Both the position numbers and the translations under genes were made by a program. From the IMG/VR virus record IMGVR_UViG_3300044730_001246, positions 1-24,177 of that record: a DNA stretch of 24,177 nt. One strand, given 5' to 3'. The stretch comes from a virus. The first letter of the stretch is position 1, and every line of letters begins with the position of its first letter. The notes under the pieces were generated by a model. The model was not told where the DNA came from. It did no database searches and saw only the letters and a list, made by a program, of their open reading frames with translations. Below, in pieces: positions 465 through 17,420 of the stretch.

Positions 465-2918
465 CTACACGGAAACGTCATTGAACTTGTTGGCTGATTC
501 CACAACGACATCGATGAAGCTCTGCTTGGGTGTCCGGCCAGGGAGAGGGTCCATGAACGCAAGCAGGACATCCCTGATCGCGACTCCAATCCTACCGATC
601 GCATACGCGATCGCGCCAGCCATCGCCGTGATCTTTGCAGGCTCCTCGAGGATGTCGAAGATGCGGCTGATGATGCCCTGGCTCTTCTCCACGACGGGTG
701 CGACGGCGGCAGCTCCCACCGTCTCAACTCCTGCTGCGAGACCGCTGATCGCTGCACCCGCACCCGCTGTTCCGGCTGCACCGCTCGCCGCGGCCGAGGC
801 TGCCGAGCTGCCGAATACCGACCCCAGCGTCCCCCAAAGCTGATTCGCGATACCGCTAAGTGCGACAACGATCGGCCCACCAGTAGCGAACAGGGTCGTG
901 ATCTTAAAACTCTTGAAGAACCTTGGAAGAGCCTTGAGCAGCTCCTCTCCGAAACCTATCAGCGCTTTACCGAGATCGGGAAGCGCGTCGATGAGTCCGT
1001 CGATCGCAGCGCCGAAACCGTCGGTCAGACCCTTCTTACCGTCCTTACCCACCGTCTCCACAAACATGGTGCTGAGACTCTTTGTCCAGATTGTCAGCTG
1101 CTTTGGGAGCCACTTGACAACGCCGGTGAGAACCTTGATGATGGTCAGACCGAACTTATTTACCATGGCCCCGAAATCGAAACCCGCAGTGCCACCGCCG
1201 AACGCGCTGGACACAGAGTCGAATATGCCGGTGAACAGCTTGTCAACAGCTCCGACGATGTCACCCTTTTGGATCGTGGTGACAAAGTCCTTTATGCTCG
1301 TCGCGATCCCAATGAACATGGTCGATATGGTATTCGCGAGGGAGACGAGAGGTGAACTTTTAGGATTAGTCTGCTCTCCGAAGAAGAGCTCGGCGACAAT
1401 CTTGCCGACCTCCCCACCGATCTCGGCGACCTTGAGCATTCCGTCAGCGAGGGGCTGAAGCACCTTCATGAAACTGCCGGATGTTCCGAATCCCCTGAGG
1501 AATCCTTCGACGAACGCGGATACAAACCCTGTGAACTCCTTGAACGGAGTGATGACGTTCTCGATGTTGTCAGCGAGATCGTTCATGACCTCCTGAGTCG
1601 ACTTTTGCTTCTTGCTCGCCGCGTCAGCGCCCTTGACGATGTCATCGTATGACTGCGAGAGACCCTTCGCGGAGAGAGCCTGCGTCAGGATCTCCTCACT
1701 GAGACCCGATGTCGAAGCAAGAAGCTCCCTTTCCTTTCTTGTCATCGATTCTACCGATCGACCCGTCGCAGTGAATGCTCGTTGAACCTCTTGCAGTCGA
1801 GCAGCCGGATCCTCCATGTTCATCATCTTCAGAGGATCAAGGACTAGACCAAACCCCTGCGCGAGCTGCGCGGCTGCCTCGGCGCCCTGCTCGAAATCGT
1901 CGAACTTATCAACGAGCCCTGTGAGCTCCGTGAGCTCGAAACCTAACTTGCGGGTGAAAGTTGCAGCTTGCGTGATCTGCTTCACGTAATCACCTGTCAT
2001 CTTGCCCAGCATCTTGAAGTTGCTGAGCGCCTTGCCAACATCGGCGCCGAGGACCTTGGTCGAGACCCCGAAGTTCTTCCCGATCTTATCGACCGAGGCC
2101 ATGATCTCCTGGCTGAACTGCTTCACGCTCTTGCCGTTCAGCATAGCGAGACGGGCTGTCTGCTGCAACCCCTGATCGGTGAAGTGTAATCCGTCCTTCA
2201 GGACGTAGAGCTCAGCGGTCGCGTCGTTGAACTGCTGACCCATCGCATCGAATACAGGTCCAAGATCGCCAGCAATCTCAGTGATCTTCTGCAGCTGCTG
2301 GATAGCTCCGTCAATTCCCATCTGGAACTTCGATGCGAAGGCCGTCGAATTACCTGCCGCTGCCCTTAATGATCCTGAGAATTGCTCGTAACCTGTCTTT
2401 ATTCTACGTGAAGTGTTATCCGTGAAACTTCCGAACTTGTCTCTGACTTTCTCAAACTCGTTGAGCAGCTCATACTGTTTTTTCGCTAGCTCAGCGGCTT
2501 TCTCGATGATGGTATCGTAAGCCTGTCTCAAGAAACCGAACGCAGCCCCTATCGGGTTCGTGATGATATCGGTAAGAGACTGGAAATTCACTCCAAGCAG
2601 CTCCAGCCCGTCTTTGAACGGACCCAGATACTTCGTCAGGGTTTCCGTGATCTTGGCGTTGAACTTTTTTATTCCATTCACGAACCCTGAGAGAAAGCCC
2701 TCTGATTTCTCCGCGCTTTCACCCGCAGCGGTGATGGCATCACTCATGTCGCCAGTCGCAGATGTTACTCCTTCCGCCGCCTCAGCGAGCTCATTGTAAG
2801 CTCCTGATTGACCGCCCATGCGCTGCTCGAGAGCAGCCAGCTTCTCGAGCTGCTGCGTGAGCAGGCGGTTCATGGACTCCATGAGCTCTACCTGACGTGA
2901 TAGCTGATTCGGATCCAC
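465..2918 (-). CDS. Tail tape-measure protein (N-terminal 817 residues, ends at TAG)
   Basis: Tape-measure proteins span the tail lumen, set tail length and are usually ejected with the DNA. This one has the expected composition and position. It opens with a coiled-coil-like stretch rich in Q, L and E (residues ~5-35), followed by long Ala/Lys/Phe helices with repeated phrases such as NNxxxLG-like helices and FGVSTKVLGADVGKAL. Glycine/alanine-rich hydrophobic segments occupy ~650-760. It follows the tail tube and two or three small genes, the classical place for a tape measure and unlike T4, where gp29 sits in the hub cluster. The start is GTG at 2918, with GGGA five bases upstream and an ATANTTA motif at 2948-2940. 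The oddity is the end: TAG at 467-465 interrupts a frame that stays open to the window edge. Family identity rests on composition and context, not on a sharp signature. Confidence 0.75.
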   Translation of the reverse strand: MDPNQLSRQVELMESMNRLLTQQLEKLAALEQRMGGQSGAYNELAEAAEGVTSATGDMSDAITAAGESAEKSEGFLSGFVNGIKKFNAKITETLTKYLGPFKDGLELLGVNFQSLTDIITNPIGAAFGFLRQAYDTIIEKAAELAKKQYELLNEFEKVRDKFGSFTDNTSRRIKTGYEQFSGSLRAAAGNSTAFASKFQMGIDGAIQQLQKITEIAGDLGPVFDAMGQQFNDATAELYVLKDGLHFTDQGLQQTARLAMLNGKSVKQFSQEIMASVDKIGKNFGVSTKVLGADVGKALSNFKMLGKMTGDYVKQITQAATFTRKLGFELTELTGLVDKFDDFEQGAEAAAQLAQGFGLVLDPLKMMNMEDPAARLQEVQRAFTATGRSVESMTRKERELLASTSGLSEEILTQALSAKGLSQSYDDIVKGADAASKKQKSTQEVMNDLADNIENVITPFKEFTGFVSAFVEGFLRGFGTSGSFMKVLQPLADGMLKVAEIGGEVGKIVAELFFGEQTNPKSSPLVSLANTISTMFIGIATSIKDFVTTIQKGDIVGAVDKLFTGIFDSVSSAFGGGTAGFDFGAMVNKFGLTIIKVLTGVVKWLPKQLTIWTKSLSTMFVETVGKDGKKGLTDGFGAAIDGLIDALPDLGKALIGFGEELLKALPRFFKSFKITTLFATGGPIVVALSGIANQLWGTLGSVFGSSAASAAASGAAGTAGAGAAISGLAAGVETVGAAAVAPVVEKSQGIISRIFDILEEPAKITAMAGAIAYAIGRIGVAIRDVLLAFMDPLPGRTPKQSFIDVVVESANKFNDVSV

Positions 2919-2963: not shown

Positions 2964-3227
2964 TCAGAGACGCCAAGGACGACCAAACATGCGTTCAAAG
3001 TCCATCGCTGCCCGGCGCTTCTCATCGGTCATCACCGCGATGGTGTCAAGGGTCGACCGCTCATCGCAGAGAGCCTCGTAGAGTCTCCTCGAGGCGAGGG
3101 TCGCCCGCCTGATGACCTTCATCTGCTCCTTATCACCTGAGAGCTTCGGCATATCACCGCCCTCGAGTATGTAACGTCCCATCTCACCGACAACCTCGGC
3201 CAGCAGCTTCTCCTGATTTTTCGCCAT
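2964..3227 (-). CDS. Small helical protein of unknown function (87 aa)
   Basis: I do not recognise a family. The 87-residue product is charged and predicted helical by composition, with many K/R/E and M residues and an invariant-looking aromatic end (RMFGRPWRL). It has no signal peptide or membrane segment. The ATG start at 3227 has AGGAG six bases upstream, so it is clearly translated. It lies between the gp51-like/overlapping ORF and the tape measure, where many phages keep tail-assembly factors. A role as tape-measure partner or chaperone is an inference from position only. Confidence 0.7.
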   Translation of the reverse strand: MAKNQEKLLAEVVGEMGRYILEGGDMPKLSGDKEQMKVIRRATLASRRLYEALCDERSTLDTIAVMTDEKRRAAMDFERMFGRPWRL

Positions 3228-3242
3228 ATTACGCTCCTGACG

Positions 3243-3251
3243 CTAAGTATT
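3243..3251 (-). promoter_or_regulatory. Promoter-like motif AATACTTAG
   Basis: Coding-strand AATACTTAG lies 16 bases before the ATG of the 87-residue gene. It overlaps the TAA stop of the preceding ORF, so a regulatory site and a stop codon share bases here. Confidence 0.45.
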
Positions 3252-3549
3252 ACGTGAATCGACGAAGCCGCGCGGGTGTCTCACCCCTTTGCATCCCCAT
3301 CATAGCCCGTGTCTGAGCGTCATTCTGATGGGCAGCCCGCGTAGGGGTGTTCTCTCGTTCGCTGTTCCTTGAGAGCTCCTTGTTCAACCGTGTGATGAAC
3401 CACTCACGATACCGTATCGGTATGTTGTAGCACTCCCAGTAGCTGAACCCCATGTAGTACATGAGTAGGAAGCTCTGCTCGAGGTAGATCTCACGATCTT
3501 CAGGCGTCAGGCCAAAAAAAGCTGGCACCCAGCGGTACGCGCACCTCAC
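3250..3549 (-). CDS. Small tail/baseplate assembly protein overlapping the gp26-like gene in the +1 frame (99 aa or less)
   Basis: The core (FFGLTPEDRE, then FLLMYYMGFSYWECYNIP and REWFITRLNKEL) resembles the short proteins that follow gp26-like genes in T4-related phages, with an aromatic 'Y-x-Y-N-(I/L)-P' helix pattern. T4 gp51, a hub-assembly factor, sits next to gp26, so a gp51-like role is plausible but not proven. The reading frame overlaps the upstream gene by 50 bases and is +1 relative to it. Possible starts are GTG at 3549 (a GAGG only one or two bases away, too close) and GTG at 3528 (weak site). No start is well supported. A run of seven T at 3520-3514 lies in the overlap, so translation by frameshifting from the upstream gene is a real alternative. 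The C-terminal third is polar and looks disordered. Confidence 0.7.
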   Translation of the reverse strand: MRCAYRWVPAFFGLTPEDREIYLEQSFLLMYYMGFSYWECYNIPIRYREWFITRLNKELSRNSERENTPTRAAHQNDAQTRAMMGMQRGETPARLRRFT

Positions 3550-4342
3550 TCACCTCACTGCAGGCGGGGCAATCGTACTCTCCCTTCATGTCGATACCCG
3601 GTTCCTGAGCATCTATGTACTTACGCAGGGCCATGGAGTCCCTGGCAGGCATGCTCCTGATGAAGCCGTTCACGGCTGCTCGATCGGTCTTGCCGTCCAC
3701 GGAAACGATCGCGTACTGCAGGCGGGTTGTCACGTTGTTGTCACCGATCGCACCCTGCTTCTTTGCACGCTCCTGAACGACTGAGATCTCCTCCTCGTCG
3801 CGGCCCGTGAGGAACTTGAAGTGCACGGTCTTCTTGGTGACGGGAAGCTTGAATTCGAAAACGTTCTGTCCCTTCGCCACGGGCTCGATCTCAAGCCGCT
3901 TGATCGGCATGTCTGCGAGATTGAACTCCTGCTTGGATCTCTTACCGCACTTCGGGCAGTCAGCCTCAACGCCGTAATCAGCGCCGTAGCCCGTGATGCG
4001 AAGGGCGATCATGATCGCGTTCCTGTCACCCGCGAGCATGTCGGGAACGTAGATTCTCTTATCAACGAGGCAGCTCTTGATGAGCTCCGTGATAACAGTG
4101 CCCTTCTTGATGAGGGCTCTCGACGTCAGGATGTCCTCCTCGCGTGCCGTCATCGAACGAATATCAACCGTTTCCTTACCGCTGAGTGGGGACTCGGCTG
4201 GGTACACGGTACCGTTCGAGGGAAGCGGGACCGACTCGACTGGAATCTCAAAACCGAAATCATCACGCATGACATCTTTCGTCTGGATGCCTGCTGGAAC
4301 CGCCCCACCGAAGAGAGCGCTACGATCTGTCTCACCTGCCAC
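3500..4342 (-). CDS. 26-like: gp26-like baseplate/hub protein (T4_baseplate family) with two CxxC pairs
   Basis: About 280 residues. The product resembles the T4 gp26-related baseplate proteins of large myoviruses: an N-terminal strand-rich part, then VDIRSMTAREEDILTSR and a helix with ALIKKGTVITELIKSCL. Two cysteine pairs, CPKC (~129-132) and CPAC (~258-261), are spaced like a split zinc ribbon. T4 gp26 works in assembly of the baseplate hub. I choose GTG at 4342 because AGGAG at 4355-4351 is eight bases away; a longer GTG start at 4351 would overlap that ribosome site. The gene sits between tail tube and tape measure, where other phages carry tail-assembly chaperones made by frameshifting. 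Its end holds a seven-T run and overlaps the next ORF. The gp26-like assignment is from remembered family features and is fairly secure; the biochemical role here is inferred. Confidence 0.7.
   Translation of the reverse strand: MAGETDRSALFGGAVPAGIQTKDVMRDDFGFEIPVESVPLPSNGTVYPAESPLSGKETVDIRSMTAREEDILTSRALIKKGTVITELIKSCLVDKRIYVPDMLAGDRNAIMIALRITGYGADYGVEADCPKCGKRSKQEFNLADMPIKRLEIEPVAKGQNVFEFKLPVTKKTVHFKFLTGRDEEEISVVQERAKKQGAIGDNNVTTRLQYAIVSVDGKTDRAAVNGFIRSMPARDSMALRKYIDAQEPGIDMKGEYDCPACSEVSEVRVPLGASFFWPDA
3514..3520 (-). promoter_or_regulatory. Candidate translational slippery site (seven T)
   Basis: On the coding strand the upstream gene reads AGC TTT TTT TGG CCT GAC GCC TGA. Slipping forward by one base on the T run gives TTT TTT GGC CTG and enters the 99-residue frame at FFGLTPEDRE. 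Without slipping, the upstream protein ends five codons after the second TTT with WPDA. A -1 slip would meet TGA at once. No downstream pseudoknot was modelled. Confidence 0.4.
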
Positions 4343-4396: not shown

Positions 4397-4427
4397 AAAA
4401 AAAATGGCCGTGCAATATGCACGGCCA
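4397..4427 (-). terminator. Rho-independent terminator after the tail tube gene
   Basis: A perfect stem pairs TGGCCGTGCA with TGCACGGCCA across a three-base loop, and on the minus strand it is followed at once by eight T (4404-4397). It lies 28 bases after the tail tube stop and separates the sheath/tube genes from the gp26-like and tape-measure genes. It is the best terminator in the window. Confidence 0.9.
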
Positions 4428-4454
4428 CCTCAAGCTCGAAGCTTCGTCGTCGGA

Positions 4455-4943
4455 TCAGTACTGCAGAACGCAGTTGTCGAAGCGCAGATCGAGCTGAATT
4501 TCGAGGATATCGTCACCATCGTACCCGAGCTCACCGAAGTTAGCCGAGGTGATGAATGCGCCCTTGATGTCCCAGAGCTCGACCACGGTTCCAACCGGAT
4601 CGATGAGCTTTAGCTGGCAATCACGCTTGTAGAAGTCAGCGTAACCAGCACGACCGGAGACCGACTCGAAGTGAGTGCGGATCCACTCCATCACCTGCTG
4701 GGCACCCGACGGCGCGATCGCATCGTAGAGCGTGACCGAGAGGGTCTCGAATGTCGTCTTGCCAGCGATGTAGCGGCGAGAGTTGATCCAGGGAATCTCC
4801 TTCTCCTCGGTCTTCACGCTCGGGCGCTTTGTTGACTTGATGAGGTAAGCATCGATACCCTCGATGGCGAAAATCCATCGGTTCTTCCTCTTCGGTTCGA
4901 ACTTGTTGGGTAGCATATCGGTGACTGAGAGTGTCTCGGCCAT
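4455..4943 (-). CDS. 19: Tail tube protein, gp19 type
   Basis: The 162-residue product has almost exactly the length of T4 gp19 (163). Recognisable features are the N-terminal NKFEPKRKNRWIFAIEG, a central strand region with TLYDAIAPSGAQQVMEWIR, and a C-terminal WDIKGAFITSANFGELGYDG typical of gp19-type tubes. Hexamers of this protein stack into the inner tube of the contractile tail. The ATG start at 4943 has AGGAG six bases upstream. It follows the second sheath gene by 41 bases and is followed by a strong terminator, which fits a highly expressed unit. Confidence 0.92.
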   Translation of the reverse strand: MAETLSVTDMLPNKFEPKRKNRWIFAIEGIDAYLIKSTKRPSVKTEEKEIPWINSRRYIAGKTTFETLSVTLYDAIAPSGAQQVMEWIRTHFESVSGRAGYADFYKRDCQLKLIDPVGTVVELWDIKGAFITSANFGELGYDGDDILEIQLDLRFDNCVLQY

Positions 4944-4984: not shown

Positions 4985-7900
4985 TTAGAAACTTGCTGCG
5001 TTTCTCGCTTCGAAATCGATCGAGACAAACTCGGCCGAACGTGTGGGCTGCAGGTAGATCTTCCCGCGGATCGTATTGTTCTCGATGTCAGCCTGCGTGG
5101 TCGTCGTCGTGTCGATCTGAACACGGTAACGCTCAACACCACGCTGCGCCTGGATCTGCTTCATGATCGGGGTCACCGCCGCGTTGAAGCGAGCGATCGT
5201 TGCCGCGCGATTTGGCTCGAAGAGCAGCCCATAGGCGACAGCCTTCACTCGACGACGAACTTCGATGAGGAGACGACGGACGTTAACACGATCAAGAGCG
5301 CTACCCTCAACAAGGAGGGTCCTCTGGCCGTTGACGACGATACCAGCGCCAGGGGACGCGATGATCGGATTGATGCCCACATCGTAGACAGTGTCAACAT
5401 TCTCAGCGAGGAATTTCGTGCTAAGCTCCTCCGCTGGGATAACGGCGCGGATGTAACCTGCCGGAGCGTACCATGCGTGAGCGAGTCTGTCGTTCTGGCC
5501 GTAAGCTCCGAGCACCATGGTCGAAGCAGGCACCCTAACCGATGAAGAAACGCCGGTTCCGGGGTCAACGTTGACGAACATGTCCGGGAAGTACGCTGCA
5601 CCGAAAGAGTTGTTGAGGCTTCGAGCCCTGAAGCGCGTTGTGGTGTAGGCCACATTCACGCTCGGGTACGTGTTTGACGCCAGGGATGCTGTCACGTAGT
5701 TGTTGTTGTCATCCTTGAGCTCGACATCCATGATGTAAAGGGCATCGAACTTTGTCTGCATCGAGCTGAGAGCGTAATCGGTAACCACCGGGTGGCGGAC
5801 ATCTGGAATCGCCAGAAGGCTGATGTCAGAGTACGTCTTGTTCGCCATGATGTCCACAGCCTTACGGTAAGCTGCGACTGTCGGACCGTCGAGCTGACCC
5901 TGGTTCGTGTTGTCCATCTCACGACGGATCGCTGCATCACGCATGTAGAACTTGTCAGCGTCAAAGACATTCAGACCATCGAAACCACCCTGCATGAAGG
6001 TCACGAACTTCAGGTACGTCCTATTCGAAGCGTACTGGAAGTCGAGGTTGACATCCACGAACCTGCCCTCAGATCCGCCCAGTGTGGCGTTTCGACGATA
6101 CACAGCCTCGTCCCAACGAGTCGTGTCGATCGTTCCGTCGGAGCTTGTCATCACCTGGATACGCTCGAGGGTGAAGAGGTTCTTGTTGAACAGGTCCGCG
6201 TCGAGCACCGAGCCGTTGACGTCCGCGACGCCAGCGTTGTTACCGACCCACGGATTCAGGTAGGTTGTGTGGAAGCTTGGGAAGTACTTCGTGTAGGCCG
6301 ACAGAGCCGAGGAGTCAAGCTGAGCGCTTGCAACGGTGGTTCCATCGTTCGGCTGCTCTATTGAGTTGCAGACGTTGAACTGCGGACCCCAGTAATACTT
6401 GCTCTCGCCCACAGCGTTGGGATCGGCGGCGGCGGCTCCAACGTTTATCGAGCGACGGAAGAACACCGGGAACTCCCTAGCATTCGTGGTCGGAATCGTG
6501 AGGTGAGAGCTGCTGTCAGCCGAACCCGTGGAAAGAAGATTCGTACCAGCTGTGACGAGGTGGTAATAACCGCGAACGGCGACGGGTAGGCTGTTGGTGG
6601 GAACGATCTTGTTGAGAACATCATCTGAGAGCTCAACTCTGATGCGACGAGAGCTCTTACCGAAGAGACCCTCCTCAACAATCTTCTGGGCATCGGCAGA
6701 GCGATCGAAGTCGAAGTACGTGTTCTGATCACCGATCTTCTTACCCACGAAACTTGAGCTGTCCGGATCAAGATCGCAGTCGACGTAGCTCTCGAGGACC
6801 ACCGGAGCGTCGTCCGTGTCGTCCCATGCGCGTACCTTCACCGTGAACTTACCGTATCCGTCTGCAGTTGTCGGGTACTTGATGTTCTCGACGGTGATCT
6901 TGTACAGCTCGTTGGTGTAAGCTCCGTCTCCGCGAGCGTGAACCCTGAAGAGATCGTACCTTGAGCCACCAAAATTCTGAGATGCGATGAACGGGGTCGT
7001 CGGGTGCTGGAATCTGTCTTCGAAGCTATCGTAGTTCGGGGAGGTGGTTGAACCAGCGTTCCTCGACTGTGAGCCCGTCAGGCAGAACACGATCTCCTCA
7101 AGAGCCTCCGACGCTCCGAGTCTCCTGATCAGGGATTCCGCAGCCACACCTGAGCCCGTCGGAACCGCGAACGCGGGCAGAACATCGTAGTGATTGTAGA
7201 GAACGTAACCGTGCTCCTCAACGAGCAGCGGGTTGGTGTTGAACTTCTTGGCAAAGTAGGAGTCAGACGTCACGTCGAACGACGCGCTGAGCACGCTTGG
7301 GTACGCTGCAGAGTCAGTGTGACCGTTCAACAGGACCACGAAATCCTGCTTGCCGCCTCTCAGATCGAGTGATCCCGTGAACCACCCACGAGCAGGAGAA
7401 GCAGTCGTAGCTGCTGAGGAGTACGTTGTTGAATTGACACCCGGAGCGGATGACGACACGGCGATCTGCACGCCGGAGGCGGCGAAGAGAACGCCTCTGA
7501 CTATCGGCTGGGCTGCCGTGGTGGTCTGCACACCGGCATCCGATAGAACCCAGGATCCTGCAGACTCAGACATATAGCAGCCGAGAAAGTAAGTTCTTCC
7601 GAGAGATCCGAGAGATGTCGCGTAGGGGTTATTTCCCAGCTGACCGCTTCCCACCTGAACCTTCTGCGAACCAGCTATGAATCCAGCGTTGTTCACACGA
7701 CCCGAGTTGGGCGCAGTTGTCGTACGCTTCTTACCGTCTCCGATGCCAAGTGTACGGACGTAGGTTCCCGCCGACGCATTGTTTAGCCACTGATTGAGTG
7801 CAAGCGGCGACGAGTAGTCCGAATCAGCGAATCCAAACTCAGTCCTGAACTGCGTGTTGTTGGCGAAGCTGATCGGAACGAACGCGGTCCCCTGTGAGGC

Positions 7901-7996
7901 CGGTCCGATGACACCCGCGGAGCGGCCCGACGGCTGAACCTCGGTCGTACCCCCTGTGCTATCGATCTCGTTGAGTGTTATACCTGGTGCAGCCAT
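4985..7996 (-). CDS. 18: Tail sheath protein, second paralogue (gp18 type, 1003 aa)
   Basis: The start MAAPGITLNEID is the usual sheath N-terminus, followed by a GVIGPASQGTAFVP strand. The C-terminal quarter holds the conserved sheath core: AHAWYAPAGYIRA, NPIIASPGAGIVVNGQRTL, then DRVNVRRLLIEVRRRVKAVAYG and FVSIDFEA at the end. T4 gp18 is 659 residues, so about 340 residues of extra, Gly/Ser/Thr-rich domains are inserted in the middle; such domains face outward in known sheaths. The ATG at 7996 has AGGAG eight bases upstream. It is a clear paralogue of the gene just before it, with the same motif order but low overall identity by eye. Two sheath genes may give mixed sheaths, or one may be a variant used at one end; the sequence does not decide. 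Confidence 0.9.
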   Translation of the reverse strand: MAAPGITLNEIDSTGGTTEVQPSGRSAGVIGPASQGTAFVPISFANNTQFRTEFGFADSDYSSPLALNQWLNNASAGTYVRTLGIGDGKKRTTTAPNSGRVNNAGFIAGSQKVQVGSGQLGNNPYATSLGSLGRTYFLGCYMSESAGSWVLSDAGVQTTTAAQPIVRGVLFAASGVQIAVSSSAPGVNSTTYSSAATTASPARGWFTGSLDLRGGKQDFVVLLNGHTDSAAYPSVLSASFDVTSDSYFAKKFNTNPLLVEEHGYVLYNHYDVLPAFAVPTGSGVAAESLIRRLGASEALEEIVFCLTGSQSRNAGSTTSPNYDSFEDRFQHPTTPFIASQNFGGSRYDLFRVHARGDGAYTNELYKITVENIKYPTTADGYGKFTVKVRAWDDTDDAPVVLESYVDCDLDPDSSSFVGKKIGDQNTYFDFDRSADAQKIVEEGLFGKSSRRIRVELSDDVLNKIVPTNSLPVAVRGYYHLVTAGTNLLSTGSADSSSHLTIPTTNAREFPVFFRRSINVGAAAADPNAVGESKYYWGPQFNVCNSIEQPNDGTTVASAQLDSSALSAYTKYFPSFHTTYLNPWVGNNAGVADVNGSVLDADLFNKNLFTLERIQVMTSSDGTIDTTRWDEAVYRRNATLGGSEGRFVDVNLDFQYASNRTYLKFVTFMQGGFDGLNVFDADKFYMRDAAIRREMDNTNQGQLDGPTVAAYRKAVDIMANKTYSDISLLAIPDVRHPVVTDYALSSMQTKFDALYIMDVELKDDNNNYVTASLASNTYPSVNVAYTTTRFRARSLNNSFGAAYFPDMFVNVDPGTGVSSSVRVPASTMVLGAYGQNDRLAHAWYAPAGYIRAVIPAEELSTKFLAENVDTVYDVGINPIIASPGAGIVVNGQRTLLVEGSALDRVNVRRLLIEVRRRVKAVAYGLLFEPNRAATIARFNAAVTPIMKQIQAQRGVERYRVQIDTTTTTQADIENNTIRGKIYLQPTRSAEFVSIDFEARNAASF
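5457..5475. repeat. 19-base identity shared by the two sheath genes (copy 1)
   Basis: The 19 bases are identical to 8517-8535 and encode the WYAPAG core of the sheath C-terminal domain in both paralogues. It is a remnant of duplication, or selected codon identity, in otherwise diverged genes. Confidence 0.6.
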
Positions 7997-8035: not shown

Positions 8036-11000
8036 TTAGATGAACTCGACGCCAGCAGGTGTGATGATAAAGTCAACAGCGATGAATTCGACGGCTCGGG
8101 TCGGAACCACGATTATCCTGCCGTTGAGCCTGCTGGCCTCGACATCAGCCTGGGTGTTGTTGGTCTCATCGCAGATGATCCTGAACTGCTCCACACCAGC
8201 CTGCGACTTTATCAGGCTGAGCAGCGGAGTAGCACGTTCCACGAAAGCTCTCCTTGTCGTCGCATCGTTCGGCTCGAAGATGAGACCACGAGCGACCTGC
8301 GCGATCACTCTCTTCAGCTCGAGGAAGAGTCTTCTGACGTTGACCCGATCGAAAGCTGACTTTGCGATCTGCAGGGTCCTCTGCCCGAAGATAACGAATC
8401 CGTTACCAGGGAAAGTGGCGATCGGATTGATCAGGTTCTCGTAGAGGTAATCCCGGTCCGATGTGCTCAGACGGACGTCAACGTTGCCGACGAAATCAAG
8501 CGCCGCCCTGTTGAATCCTGCCGGAGCGTACCATGGGTATGAGACCCGATCACCGTATGCAAGCGCTCCGAGCGCAGCCACCGAGGCCGGAACCTTCACC
8601 CTACGACCCGAGAGCTGGTCATTCACGAAAACATCGGGGAAGTAGGCAGCGGTGTAATTGCTGTTCAGGGCACGTGCAGTGAGAGCGTCCGTCGTCTTCG
8701 TCACGTTGGGCCTGACCCCCGTCGAATCCTCGAATATCCTGACGTTAGAGTCGCTGTAGCTTGGGATATCGATCACGTACATGCCGAGAGCGTAGGAAGG
8801 CATCCTACGAGCGACGTAGTCGGTAACGAGCGGTTCACGAATGCCCGGCACGGCGAGCATGTTGATGTTCACCGTTAGCTTGTCCGTCATGAGCTTCGCG
8901 GCCGTGCGATATGAATTGACAGCATTGTTGCTCAGACCGTCGCCGTTTGGATCGTAACCGAGGCCGGATCTCGCGAGACCTGCGGCAGCTGATGTGGCGA
9001 GACCGCCCGTCTCGATGGACGTCGCTCGATCTCCCATCTTCGCGGCGGCGCCGTCGAGGATGTTTAGACCATCGAAACCACCGTAGAATATCGTTGAGAA
9101 CTTAGCGTACTCTGAGAATTTGTTGAATGTGTTCGCGGACCCAGAGAGGAGAGAGGCGAACGTGATCCTGTTTAACGAGGAATCGTTGATCCTGTAGTCC
9201 AGGCTGTTGGGCACGCCGCTCCTGATGTAGGCAGTCTCCTTCATGTGGGATTCAACGGTTCCCGTGACGTCCGAGAGTGATGTGTTCGAGAGCGCTACCC
9301 GAGCGAGTGTGAACTTGTTCGCATTGAAGGCATCTGCGTCGGATCCCGTGATGAGGGCGTCGAGCTTCTGGATTCCCTGAAAGCGAGCGTAGGCTAGAAC
9401 TGTATTGTCGAACTCTGTGCCGGCGTTGGAATTCATAACTGAATTCTCGATCTTCCCACTTGTGGTTCCTGATGGTACGAGACGTTCGAACTTAACGCCC
9501 CAGTGAAGTCTAGAGTCAGGTATCTCGAGGATTCCCGGCTGACCAGTGTACGATGAACCGTTGACCTGTCCGTTGGTAACCTTGAATCGCAGCGGTAGGG
9601 GCGGGACTATGGATCCCGTGAGTCCGGTCTCGACCGAGCTGCTGCATGCGAGGCGCGGAAGCACATTCGCTCCAGCCCCGTAGGTTCGACCACCCAACGC
9701 AAGTGCGGAATTCGTGTCCGTCAGAGTCTGTGTGGTCCTTGCGACCGGAACACCACGGAACCCGAAAGGAAGCGCCGTCTTCGGAACGACACCTGAATCG
9801 AGTGCTGTGGAGATCGATACCCTGACCCGCCTGCTCGCGTTCGGGAACTTACCGCTGATCTGCAGCCTGCGTTCGTCCTCGGTCAGAGCGTCAAAGTTCA
9901 TGGTGACCTTTCGATCTCCGATTTTCTTCGCGATGTAGTTCTGGCTTGCGGGGTTGAGATCGCAACCAGTGAATGTCTCAAGAGCTCTCGGTGAGGTGTC
10001 AGTGTCAAACAGGTCACGAACAACGACGTCGAAAGTTCCATACGGATTCTTCGGGTCGGTCGAGGCGCGAACATTCGAGATGCTGATCTTGAATCGATCG
10101 TTACCCGATGCACCATCGGTCAGGGTCTCAAAGTTGAAGAGATCGTATTCTAGATCACCGAAAGGCTGGGAGATGATGGCTGGTGTGCGAGCGGTCGTGT
10201 ACCTCGTGTCGAAACGACCGAAGTTCTGCCTGTATGTCGAGCTCGAACCTGAGGCTATGGCGATGCAGGAATCGCCGACGGTGTCGAGAGGGGCGACCTC
10301 ATCATCGACCGGGAAGTCCAGATAGAGAAGATGCTGTTCATCCTGGAACTTCTTCGGATCCGTGTTGAACACCTTACCGAGGTAATCCGTGTCATTCGGG
10401 TTAAAGGAAGCGGTCAGGATTCGAAGACCGGTGAATCCGTCGGTCGTTCCGAACGCTGATCCTTGCGAGGACGAGATGACGAACTTGAACTTCTTGTAGG
10501 TCGACGATGTTGTTGAGAGATTCGTAGAAGATACATCGTCGATTAAGGCTCCCGAGCCTGACCACTGTGAATTGGCTCCCGTCATGTCGAGAACCATTCC
10601 CCTTGCTCCGGTTGGGAACATCAGGACACCACGGACAATGTTCAATGTATCGCCCCCAGCGGGTGGGCTAAAGCTTGGGTTGTCGCTGAATATTGGGAAG
10701 CCACGCCACTCCGATGGGGTGACCGTGTCGGCAGGAAGCGAGTGACGTGCGACAAGGAACTGCACGACTCCTGTGTTCCTGTTGTCATTGCCCGGAAGGG
10801 CTACGGTCGATCCAGTCACCTTGAAACCAGCGTTACGAACAGTTCCCTGTGCAACAGTTGTCGAGACGTCGGCCGTGGTCGCGTTGGCGCCTGCGCCGAG
10901 GACACGGGTGAATGTGAGTGCTCCCTTGTGCTTCAACCATTCGTTCGCCGCGTAGGTAGCTGGTCGATCGGGATCGAGGCCACCGAAGCGAGCCTCGAAA

Positions 11001-11155
11001 TCCGAGAATGATGCGACAGTCGTGGGCACGAAGGCTGGTCCTGACGCTGCTGCGCCAATGAGTCCACCCGGGACGCCCGTGGGTGCCGCACCCGGGGCGG
11101 TAAGCTCAATCTCCTGTTCGAAGAATCCAGGAGAGCGAAAGGTCTGTTCGGACAT
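8036..11155 (-). CDS. 18: Tail sheath protein, first paralogue (gp18 type, 1039 aa)
   Basis: The N-terminus (MSEQTFRSPGFFEQEIELT, then GGLIGAAASGPAFVPTTV) and the WLKHKGALTFTRVLGAG segment are typical of T4-like sheaths. The C-terminal core has SYPWYAPAGFNRA, NPIATFPGNGFVIFGQRTLQ, FDRVNVRRLFLELKRVIAQVARG and ends FIAVDF. With 1039 residues it is far longer than T4 gp18; the middle (~130-700) is a series of Ser/Thr/Asn-rich beta domains. The ATG at 11155 has AGGAG seven bases upstream. It is followed after 39 bases by its paralogue. The sheath identity is secure. Which of the two forms the bulk of the contractile sheath cannot be told from sequence. Confidence 0.92.
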   Translation of the reverse strand: MSEQTFRSPGFFEQEIELTAPGAAPTGVPGGLIGAAASGPAFVPTTVASFSDFEARFGGLDPDRPATYAANEWLKHKGALTFTRVLGAGANATTADVSTTVAQGTVRNAGFKVTGSTVALPGNDNRNTGVVQFLVARHSLPADTVTPSEWRGFPIFSDNPSFSPPAGGDTLNIVRGVLMFPTGARGMVLDMTGANSQWSGSGALIDDVSSTNLSTTSSTYKKFKFVISSSQGSAFGTTDGFTGLRILTASFNPNDTDYLGKVFNTDPKKFQDEQHLLYLDFPVDDEVAPLDTVGDSCIAIASGSSSTYRQNFGRFDTRYTTARTPAIISQPFGDLEYDLFNFETLTDGASGNDRFKISISNVRASTDPKNPYGTFDVVVRDLFDTDTSPRALETFTGCDLNPASQNYIAKKIGDRKVTMNFDALTEDERRLQISGKFPNASRRVRVSISTALDSGVVPKTALPFGFRGVPVARTTQTLTDTNSALALGGRTYGAGANVLPRLACSSSVETGLTGSIVPPLPLRFKVTNGQVNGSSYTGQPGILEIPDSRLHWGVKFERLVPSGTTSGKIENSVMNSNAGTEFDNTVLAYARFQGIQKLDALITGSDADAFNANKFTLARVALSNTSLSDVTGTVESHMKETAYIRSGVPNSLDYRINDSSLNRITFASLLSGSANTFNKFSEYAKFSTIFYGGFDGLNILDGAAAKMGDRATSIETGGLATSAAAGLARSGLGYDPNGDGLSNNAVNSYRTAAKLMTDKLTVNINMLAVPGIREPLVTDYVARRMPSYALGMYVIDIPSYSDSNVRIFEDSTGVRPNVTKTTDALTARALNSNYTAAYFPDVFVNDQLSGRRVKVPASVAALGALAYGDRVSYPWYAPAGFNRAALDFVGNVDVRLSTSDRDYLYENLINPIATFPGNGFVIFGQRTLQIAKSAFDRVNVRRLFLELKRVIAQVARGLIFEPNDATTRRAFVERATPLLSLIKSQAGVEQFRIICDETNNTQADVEASRLNGRIIVVPTRAVEFIAVDFIITPAGVEFI
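8517..8535. repeat. 19-base identity shared by the two sheath genes (copy 2)
   Basis: Partner of the copy at 5457-5475, in direct orientation and 3060 bases away. It could support recombination between the paralogues, although 19 bases is short. Confidence 0.6.
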
Positions 11156-15641: not shown

Positions 15642-17420
15642 TTAACGCCTTGTTGCCTCAAGCAACGCAGCCAGCACGCTGGATCTCCTGCGTGAATCTG
15701 CGATTCGGCCGTGCTCGCCCTTTAGTATCGACCAGTACTTATCCTTCATGTCCTGACCTAGAGTCTGCGGGACGTACTCATCGAACGATCTCTTGTCATT
15801 GGTGGCGAGGAACTGACGCATCCTCGTTCCAGATATTTGGACAGTCTCGGATCTTGCCACAGGCCTTTGCTGCAGTTTCGAGAAAGCGACGGGATCGCGA
15901 ATGTAATCAGACATCCTTTCGGAGGCGTACTTCCCGCGAGCGTCCTCATCGTCGGAATAGAACACGAACTTGCTCACGACGTCCTTAAGCTGCCTCATCT
16001 TGTCAACAGCGAGCTGCAGCGGTGATTCGGGGGTGATGATCAGGGTGGCATTCGGGTAATCACGGTGGAATTGGGGCTCCAGCACCGCTTTCCAGGCGTC
16101 GATCATCACACCCGGCGGCAGCTCATCACGACCGGAGGTCGACGTGATGATAAGCGCCTCATCGCATTCCTGCGACGCGAGACCGATCATGCTCCAGTGA
16201 CCAGCATGTACCGGCTTACCAGCAACCACGAATATACCGATGCTGATCCCACTCTGAGTTCCGATCTCGAGGCGGCGCATCACCTGGGATTTTGTCGTGA
16301 GGAAAAGGTCCTCCTGGCGTTGAATCAATGATTTTGGATGATTCAGGGCTCCAAGTCGATTGGCAATCGCTGAGTCGAAGTAACATTCCTGGTGAATGTC
16401 CTCGAGCGTGCTGTTGAGATCAGCCTCCGGAACATTTCGACGCTGCGCCGGCGCGTATTCCGCCGATATCTCGTTAGCAATCGCGATGACACCGTCCCAG
16501 TACGCTTGCTCATCCTCTCGGGTCGCAGCCCTGAACTTCTGCTTCATAGTCTGCCGATGCTCGACATCGTGCTGATCAAAGCGGAGCGCTTTGTAAAGAG
16601 CTCGTGTTGCTGACGTGCGGAACACGGAGCCCTCAGCTGGCGATCGCTCAGTCTCTGTCGATAATGACGTATCAAAATCTGAGAAGATCTCATACAGCGT
16701 ATCGACGATCTTCAATGGACGATCTGGGGACGAGTCGGAGTACGCTGCCCTGACCTTATCGATCAGATCTGCGACCCGCCGCTCGATGGACGCGCTCCGG
16801 ATCCCCGACTGCAAGCTCTGCAGTGACGATAGAGACCCTTCGAACAGTGCGGGGTAAGTGTTCACATCCAGGAGCCTCGCGTACTCCTCAAGCTTCACCT
16901 CGTCATCCACGGGTGTGATGTTGGTAACGAGATGGGTACCGGTCACCTTGTAGCGTGAAGGACCGAAGAGGGTCAGAAATATGCCATGTTTTCTGGGGTA
17001 CTCACGACTGATCGTCGGCTTACGCTGCACAAATTCAAGGAAGAATTCGGTACCCTGTGGGATCGAAGCGGTATTCCTGTGCACACGCGAGAGGTGAGAG
17101 TGAACGAGAGAGTATTGCGCCGTCCCAGACGAAGTTGCTCTGACCTCTTCCTCACGACTGGCCAAGCCTTGCGCTTCACCCGGGTAGATGACGTTACCCT
17201 TGTACGCGATGTACCAGTTCTTCGAGTAGTTGTCAGGATCGAACTCGTTGTTCCTGCGTAGCAAGGTCAGCTTCGTGCCATCGATCTTTTCAACGATCTT
17301 AATGCTGGGATCGTCAAGGAACGCCTGAGCCTTTGCACGATCATTTGCACGTGCCCGAGCCGACGCATCGGGCCTGACCATCACCTTCCTGAGATCATCG
17401 ATAGAGATATTAGTTGACAT
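15642..17420 (-). CDS. Fusion of an RNA-ligase-like adenylyltransferase domain and an HxGH nucleotidylyltransferase domain (592 aa)
   Basis: Two enzyme modules are visible. Residues ~38-285 carry covalent nucleotidyltransferase motifs of the RNA ligase superfamily: motif I KIDG (Lys45 the likely AMP-accepting lysine), a motif III-like FFLEF (~126-130), motif IV EGSV (263-266) and a motif V-like lysine (~277). Residues ~394-545 carry the nucleotidylyltransferase signature of NMN/pantetheine adenylyl- and cytidylyltransferases: IGIFVVAGKPVHAGH with the HxGH (405-408), and ISGTRMR (529-535). The first module should form an enzyme-AMP; the second should move a nucleotide onto a phosphate. The substrate is unknown: RNA repair, RNA capping or NAD-type cofactor chemistry are all possible. 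Its ATG overlaps the upstream TGA by one base (TGATG) and GGGGA lies upstream, so it is coupled to the nucleotidyltransferase gene. The tail (~570-592) is Arg-rich. Confidence 0.7.
   Translation of the reverse strand: MSTNISIDDLRKVMVRPDASARARANDRAKAQAFLDDPSIKIVEKIDGTKLTLLRRNNEFDPDNYSKNWYIAYKGNVIYPGEAQGLASREEEVRATSSGTAQYSLVHSHLSRVHRNTASIPQGTEFFLEFVQRKPTISREYPRKHGIFLTLFGPSRYKVTGTHLVTNITPVDDEVKLEEYARLLDVNTYPALFEGSLSSLQSLQSGIRSASIERRVADLIDKVRAAYSDSSPDRPLKIVDTLYEIFSDFDTSLSTETERSPAEGSVFRTSATRALYKALRFDQHDVEHRQTMKQKFRAATREDEQAYWDGVIAIANEISAEYAPAQRRNVPEADLNSTLEDIHQECYFDSAIANRLGALNHPKSLIQRQEDLFLTTKSQVMRRLEIGTQSGISIGIFVVAGKPVHAGHWSMIGLASQECDEALIITSTSGRDELPPGVMIDAWKAVLEPQFHRDYPNATLIITPESPLQLAVDKMRQLKDVVSKFVFYSDDEDARGKYASERMSDYIRDPVAFSKLQQRPVARSETVQISGTRMRQFLATNDKRSFDEYVPQTLGQDMKDKYWSILKGEHGRIADSRRRSSVLAALLEATRR

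Follow-up and report, generated by a model that had tools for sequence, protein, structure and literature searches.

The window analysed here is a virus fragment of 24,177 bases (IMGVR_UViG_3300044730_001246). Its minus strand harbours a T4-type structural module, which includes a gp23-like capsid protein and a tape measure protein. The features considered in this work are the following:

Minus strand: gp23-like capsid protein and two sheath proteins, in the same T4-type module as the putative chaperone gene
4455-4943, minus strand: tail tube protein, gp19-like (phrog_4542, E=1.5e-28), directly upstream of the putative chaperone gene
4401-4431, minus strand: strong hairpin resembling an intrinsic terminator (14-bp stem, T run), located between the tube and chaperone genes
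3503-4342, minus strand: predicted TAC-N, gp26-like (T4_baseplate, PF12322), 280 aa, 0-frame, with GTG start at 4342 and stop TGA at 3500-3502
3509-3520, minus strand: putative slip site TTT-TTT-TGG-CCT
3253-3513, minus strand: predicted TAC-C, +1-frame extension of 87 codons from GGC (GLTPEDRE...LRRFT), with stop at 3250-3252
3253-4342, minus strand: TAC-NC, predicted 363-aa frameshift product over both frames
2964-3227, minus strand: 87-aa ORF of unassigned function between the chaperone and tape measure genes
465-2918, minus strand: tail length tape measure protein (phrog_167, E=1.1e-12)

The order of tube, chaperone and tape measure genes was found to be kept in isolated phages too. The two sheath-like proteins of the window are very large and encoded in tandem on the minus strand (4985-7996, 1003 aa; 8036-11155, 1039 aa), with the sheath domain restricted to the C-terminal third of each. 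In the head-to-neck region, the minus strand encodes a 592-aa protein (15642-17420), the C-terminal part of which resembles cytidylyltransferases and nicotinamide-nucleotide adenylyltransferases, while a KIDG motif near its N-terminus is reminiscent of nucleotidyltransferases or ligases. Of 63 homologues, 25 have a hairpin fulfilling a strict definition of terminator likeness in the 200 nt that precede the chaperone gene, as opposed to 0 of 315 shuffled sequences. The sequences of these hairpins differ from one another, and a terminator is annotated at the equivalent place in the record of phage SP-15. The hairpin at 4401-4431 may lower the transcription of the chaperone and tape measure genes relative to that of the tube gene, and in this way set the ratio of tube to chaperone.

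The 0-frame of the gp26-like gene starts at GTG 4342 with AGGAG upstream and ends with ...GCC AGC TTT TTT TGG CCT GAC GCC TGA, where the two TTT codons occupy positions 3520-3518 and 3517-3515, TGG 3514-3512, CCT 3511-3509 and the TGA stop 3502-3500. The run of seven T which an earlier note on this DNA had described near the end of the gene was confirmed at 3520-3514 on the minus strand, and the stop follows after four sense codons. A +1 shift inside the T run leads to ...A S F F G L T P E D R E and to an extension of 87 codons in all. The overlapping 99-residue frame which such a slip had been proposed to enter corresponds to the ORF 3250-3549 in the +1 frame, reading ...AFFGLTPEDRE. Its lack of a well-spaced start was borne out as well: the only in-frame starts ahead of the site are GTG 3549 and GTG 3528, none of them with a well-spaced Shine-Dalgarno sequence. 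The product lengths, estimated in the earlier note at about 280 residues for the short form and about 363 for the fused form, were computed as 280 aa and 363 aa, respectively. For the fused product, the predicted junction peptide is ...GASFFGLTPEDR in the case of a +1 slip and ...GASFFFGLTPEDR, with one extra residue, in the case of a -2 slip.

The gp26-like protein matched PF12322 (E=2.5e-16, 60.5 bits at a curated cut-off of 24.5) and phrog_150 (E=1.7e-19). The same two models are matched by gp26 and gp51 of phage T4, and the C-terminal part of phrog_150 is covered by T4 gp51 and not by gp26. A direct homology of the gp51 C-terminal tail to the extension was looked for by single-sequence comparison, which gave no match. 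The N part was modelled with AlphaFold (pLDDT 84.6), and a PDB search with this model gave nothing significant. The best PDB match by VIA-align was the HK97 tail assembly chaperone (2ob9_B, Z 4.8, rmsd 3.6, 88 of 104 residues), with a Foldseek E of 5.8 that lies in the chance range, so that the likeness of the modelled N-domain to the HK97 chaperone is suggestive only. The C-domain alone was predicted to fold into three helices, with a pLDDT of about 90 over residues 1-50. A match of the extension to DUF6760 (PF20546; E=0.0021, 18.5 bits) remained below the curated cut-off of 27, and DUF6760 was therefore not adopted as its name. A genome search for DUF6760 gave no matches, nor did its controls, so that it carries no information, and no mention of DUF6760 was found in the literature searched.

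Homologues were gathered by similarity to the 280-aa N part alone, and the junction was therefore not selected for. The wide set comprised 251 loci, from which 124 representatives with less than 80% identity were retained. The closest clade comprised 81 loci (the 80 nearest IMG/VR loci and the window), 64 of which were non-redundant. Past the stop, only the +1 frame was open in 114 of the 124 representatives, only the -1 frame in 4, and both frames in 6. Alignment of the homologues revealed a conserved slip site and showed the +1 relation to be kept in hundreds of them. All 81 loci of the closest clade display the site [TTT/TTC]-[TTT/CTT]-TGG-CCT, the two codons before TGG being TTT TTT in 58 loci, TTT CTT in 19 and TTC TTT in 4. 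The 0-frame stop lies 4-6 codons past the site in these loci, and the +1 extension measures 71-93 aa where it is complete. The seven T emphasised in the earlier note are as such not conserved (the variants being TTTTTTT, TTTCTTT and TTCTTTT), but the core YTT-T is.

The codon before TGG is TTT or CTT in 64 of the 64 non-redundant loci, and never TTC or one of the other five Leu codons. In these genes, TTC makes up 41% of the Phe codons and CTT 29% of the Leu codons. The chance of such a lock was calculated from each gene's own codon use at about 10^-23 (log10 P = -23), a value which treats the loci as independent and is only a guide. An in-frame YTT-TGG occurs nowhere else in the 17,040 codons of these genes, and no codons of the gene are under tighter synonymous constraint than the slip codons (identity 1.00 vs. 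a gene median of 0.36). The CCT after TGG is invariant too; this was not counted as evidence because the coding of Gly-Leu in the +1 frame could explain it. The A-site codon is TGG, or TAC in a few members. The observation is real and not a product of chance.

The base preceding the two slip codons was also found to be constrained. It is T in none of the 64 loci where 23 were expected (log10 P = -12.7, with the loci treated as independent). The absence of T at this position removes the tandem U_UUU_UUU and would thereby block slipping in the -1 direction. Among the wider members, T precedes the site in 5 of about 78 loci; a base other than T is a strong tendency there and not a law. Four loci (L185, L196, L207 and L210) carry TTT-CTA-TGG instead of TTT-CTT-TGG. 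Here the second codon is unable to slip, and a forward slip would be possible only at the first TTT (onto TTC). Judging by these loci, it may not be the same codon that slips in every member.

The +1 frame encodes a conserved domain with the pattern GL.P.D....LE..F.LMYY.GF.Y.E.Y..P.....WFI.R...E ... LRRFT. This extension is under strong purifying selection (pN 0.257 vs. pS 0.871), with pN smaller than pS in 478 of 478 pairs. Codons 6-17 of the extension, which are situated between the 0-frame stop and the first conserved ATG, show a ratio of 0.25 and are selected as strongly as the rest, which implies that translation must enter before this ATG. Starts by which it could do so are largely missing. 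In 49 of the 81 loci there is no ATG, GTG or TTG in the +1 frame upstream of the site, some of them having just 9-15 open bases there, and in 36 of the 64 non-redundant loci this frame lacks a start codon up to and including extension codon 15. No conserved start proper to a small gene outside the overlap was found among the homologues. These data bear on the possibility that the locus consists of two ordinary overlapping genes, with translation of the small protein either initiated internally or coupled to the gp26 stop. GTG 3549 and GTG 3528 of the window, the ATG conserved at extension codons 18 and 21 and the annotation of the downstream part as a separate gene (gp51) in cyanophage S-SSM7 could be taken in its favour. 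However, the lack of any start before codon 16 in more than half of the non-redundant loci and the selection on codons 6-17 speak against it, the internal ATG is preceded by no Shine-Dalgarno word in nearly all of the 81 loci, and a free overlap fails to explain the locked TTT/CTT codon. Two separate genes are thus very unlikely.

The pairing possibilities at the site suggest +1 rather than -1 as the best-supported direction of the shift. All +1 members of the closest clade share YUU with a U after it, which would allow tRNA-Phe or tRNA-Leu to re-pair from UUU or CUU onto UUU, and a -1 slip meets a stop in most members. The variants TTCTTTT and TTTCTTT argue at the same time against a -1 slip, a -2 slip, transcriptional slippage and a homopolymer error. 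A -2 ribosomal slip, known for phage Mu (PMC5009743), would give the same chaperone and fused product, since the resulting frame is identical and seven T let UUU re-pair two bases back. It would, however, put tRNA-Phe on UCU with a mismatch at the second position in the TTC-TTT-TGG members (7 of the 124 representatives), and would demand mismatch-like re-pairing on UUC in the TTT-CTT-TGG members. Moreover, T is conserved right after the P codon, with C in outlying members; the identity of this base is of consequence for a +1 slip but not for a -2 slip. A slip of -2 is accordingly regarded as unlikely.

T runs of such length can slip in RNA polymerase (Atkins 2016, PMC5009743). As the window and most members have seven T, the fused frame could in principle originate from transcriptional slippage and not from the ribosome; yet the TTTCTTT and TTCTTTT members retain the same frame relation with runs of 3-4 T, and slippage of the polymerase would yield -1 and +1 products alike, which makes this origin extremely improbable. 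Lastly, one T fewer would fuse the two frames exactly, as if the true gene were a single open frame with six T and the seventh an error of sequencing or assembly. The two frames stand in the same relation in 251 loci, and complete genomes of isolated phages show it as well, also in variants that lack a long T run, so that the probability of such an error is close to nil, and a homopolymer error is refuted for the family.

Elements known to stimulate frameshifting elsewhere were searched around the site. Downstream RNA structure gave z scores near 0 in five members and a mean of -0.48 in 40, no better than shuffled sequences, and was ruled out as stimulator on this basis. An upstream Shine-Dalgarno word like that of RF2 is not conserved, core words being present within 20 nt in 5 of 64 loci, and the energy of upstream anti-Shine-Dalgarno pairing is modestly raised only. 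Since neither RNA structure nor an RF2-like Shine-Dalgarno word is kept, a competition between the codons UGG and GGC is proposed as the driver. At the RF2 site, where the ribosome slips by +1, CUU is the natural codon, followed in slipperiness by CCC and UUU in tests of that site (PMC10885494). The RF2 gene (prfB, CUU_UGA) and the present site share a P-site tRNA that would slip forward from CUU (here CUU or UUU) onto UUU. In contrast to RF2, the site of the window has the sense codon UGG in the A site and not a stop, is devoid of a Shine-Dalgarno word 3 nt upstream and is not a feedback switch.

Protein family, location ahead of the tape measure gene, the pair of predicted forms and the proposed frameshift jointly indicate a tail assembly chaperone. 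On these sequence-based grounds, the segment 3250-4342 very probably represents one T4-lineage tail assembly chaperone gene, with the predicted forms TAC-N (280 aa) and TAC-NC (363 aa) produced via +1 ribosomal frameshifting at YUU_U. The suggestion of the earlier note that the pair is the T4-lineage counterpart of frameshifted tail chaperones is supported: the slip site and the +1 relation are kept among the homologues, and the small frame lacks a conserved start of its own. Most ribosomes would stop at 3502-3500 and release TAC-N. At UUU_UUU_UGG, the P-site peptidyl-tRNA (Phe on UUU, or Leu on CUU in other members) would occasionally move one base forward onto UUU, favoured by the slow decoding of UGG against GGC; GGC would then be read in place of UGG, and 87 further codons would be translated to give TAC-NC. 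The lambda model assigns to the short form the coating of the tape measure protein, and to the extension the delivery of tube subunits (PMC5009743). By analogy with lambda G/GT, TAC-N would coat the tape measure protein and TAC-C recruit tube subunits; the two forms would be needed at a set ratio, and neither would stay in the virion.

The +1 junction was also identified in isolated phages, namely Flavobacterium phage immuto, Microcystis phage Mel-JY01, Bacillus phage SP-15, Listeria phage LIS04, Streptococcus phage GXN1 and Streptomyces phage BRock. In immuto the site reads TTT CTT TGG CCT and the extension is unannotated. Other members have the -1 frame open: Cronobacter phage GAP32, Pseudomonas phage Ettore and Stenotrophomonas phage RAS14 at U_UUU_UUC or U_UUU_UUU, cyanophage S-SSM7 at U_UUU_UUC and Rhizobium phage RL2RES at U_UUU_UUG. 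Loci with the same junctions were found in metagenome-assembled genomes. The five -1 phages, which are cyanophage, rhizobiophage and jumbo-phage members, share with the window a homologous N-domain and an open frame past the stop, and differ from it by the -1 direction at their sites. In GAP32, Ettore and RAS14 the C-domain is related as well: comparison of the C-domains of the +1 set with those of the -1 set (these three phages and locus L265) gave an hhalign probability of 94% (E=1.3e-7). When the direction is mapped on a tree built from 42 N-domains, it has to change 4 times, and well-supported branches force at least 2 of these changes. It appears somewhat more probable than the contrary that the direction was reversed several times in one homologous chaperone family, and that it is set by the bases around the same UUU: U before and UUY at the end would give -1, a base other than U before and U (or C) after YUU would give +1, neither RNA structure nor a Shine-Dalgarno word being needed.

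Three further loci deserve a comment. The first (L170, 1501-2235) lies inside the +1 clade and has the site TTC-TTC-TGG-CCT with an open extension frame in -1; the direction may have been reversed recently here, or the assembly may be wrong, and the locus was left out as proof of reversal. The second (L275, 3965-7635) belongs to a deltaproteobacterial contig on which genes for sheath, tube, chaperone (with a -1 extension), tape measure and LysM-like proteins follow each other in the order of a phage tail; the contig may represent a prophage or an injection system. The third (L282, 2974-3884) is that of S-SSM7, where the annotated gp51 corresponds to the -1 frame after T_TTT_TTC at the end of gp26. 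Rather than a gene of its own, the S-SSM7 "gp51" is probably the C-terminal domain of a frameshifted protein.

Frameshifted tail chaperones were reportedly described in lambda and other long-tailed phages by Xu, Hendrix and Duda in 2004. Vladimirov, Gautam and Davidson (in Virology 2022, 566:9-15) are said to have identified the chaperone genes of T4-like phages, with frameshifting kept in several T4-like groups and T4 using genes 26 and 51. Tail chaperone frameshifting is widely known, with -1, -2 and +1 cases, and T4 still figured as the exception in a review of 2016 (PMC5009743). Two papers refer to Vladimirov 2022: in the passage of one of them T4-like chaperones use separate genes (PMC10885494), in that of the other, later one T4-like TAC-N genes carry -1 poly-T signals (PMC12846349). 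The gene of the window has in common with the T4-like chaperones (T4 gp26/gp51) the family PF12322/phrog_150 and a short N form next to a long N+C form. Several T4-like groups are also reported to frameshift, ahead of the tape measure region, at a site rich in T; the poly-T signals in the citing passage are -1, whereas the group of the window would use +1 at YUU_U with a base other than T before it. T4 itself differs by having two separate genes (gp26, gp51) in place of one frameshifted gene. Lambda gpG/gpGT resembles the present case in its location between tube and tape measure, and in making two products from one start with a shift near the end of the first frame. It differs by its -1 shift, and no likeness in sequence was shown, the HK97 chaperone being the only structural hint. 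Directions other than -1 are also used by the tail chaperones of the haloarchaeal myovirus HSTV-2 (+1) and of phage Mu (-2), the sequences of which are unrelated to the chaperone of the window and which are not T4-like (PMC5009743). Judging from the citing passages, frameshifted T4-like chaperones are already known as a concept. As far as checked, the +1 site and its apparent protection against -1, together with the proposed reversals of direction, are new; the +1 group might already figure in Vladimirov 2022 (doi 10.1016/j.virol.2021.11.003), which is known here via the papers citing it.

For a large group of T4-like phages, most of them uncultured, the predicted fused product would fill the place of the second chaperone form that has been missing. 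In isolated members the extension is at present unannotated or labelled hypothetical. None of 481 forward RECODE sites was predicted in an evaluation of general tools, which handle +1 sites poorly (PMC10885494), and gene callers lose the extension for this reason. The site represents a minimal +1 signal of about nine bases that is kept over deep divergence, while homologues would shift the opposite way at the same place. If the reversals are true, the family constitutes a natural experiment on the direction of frameshifting, and +1 at YUU_UGG would predominate in a large group of T4-like phages from the environment. The direction would then have been swapped in evolution with its purpose apparently unchanged.
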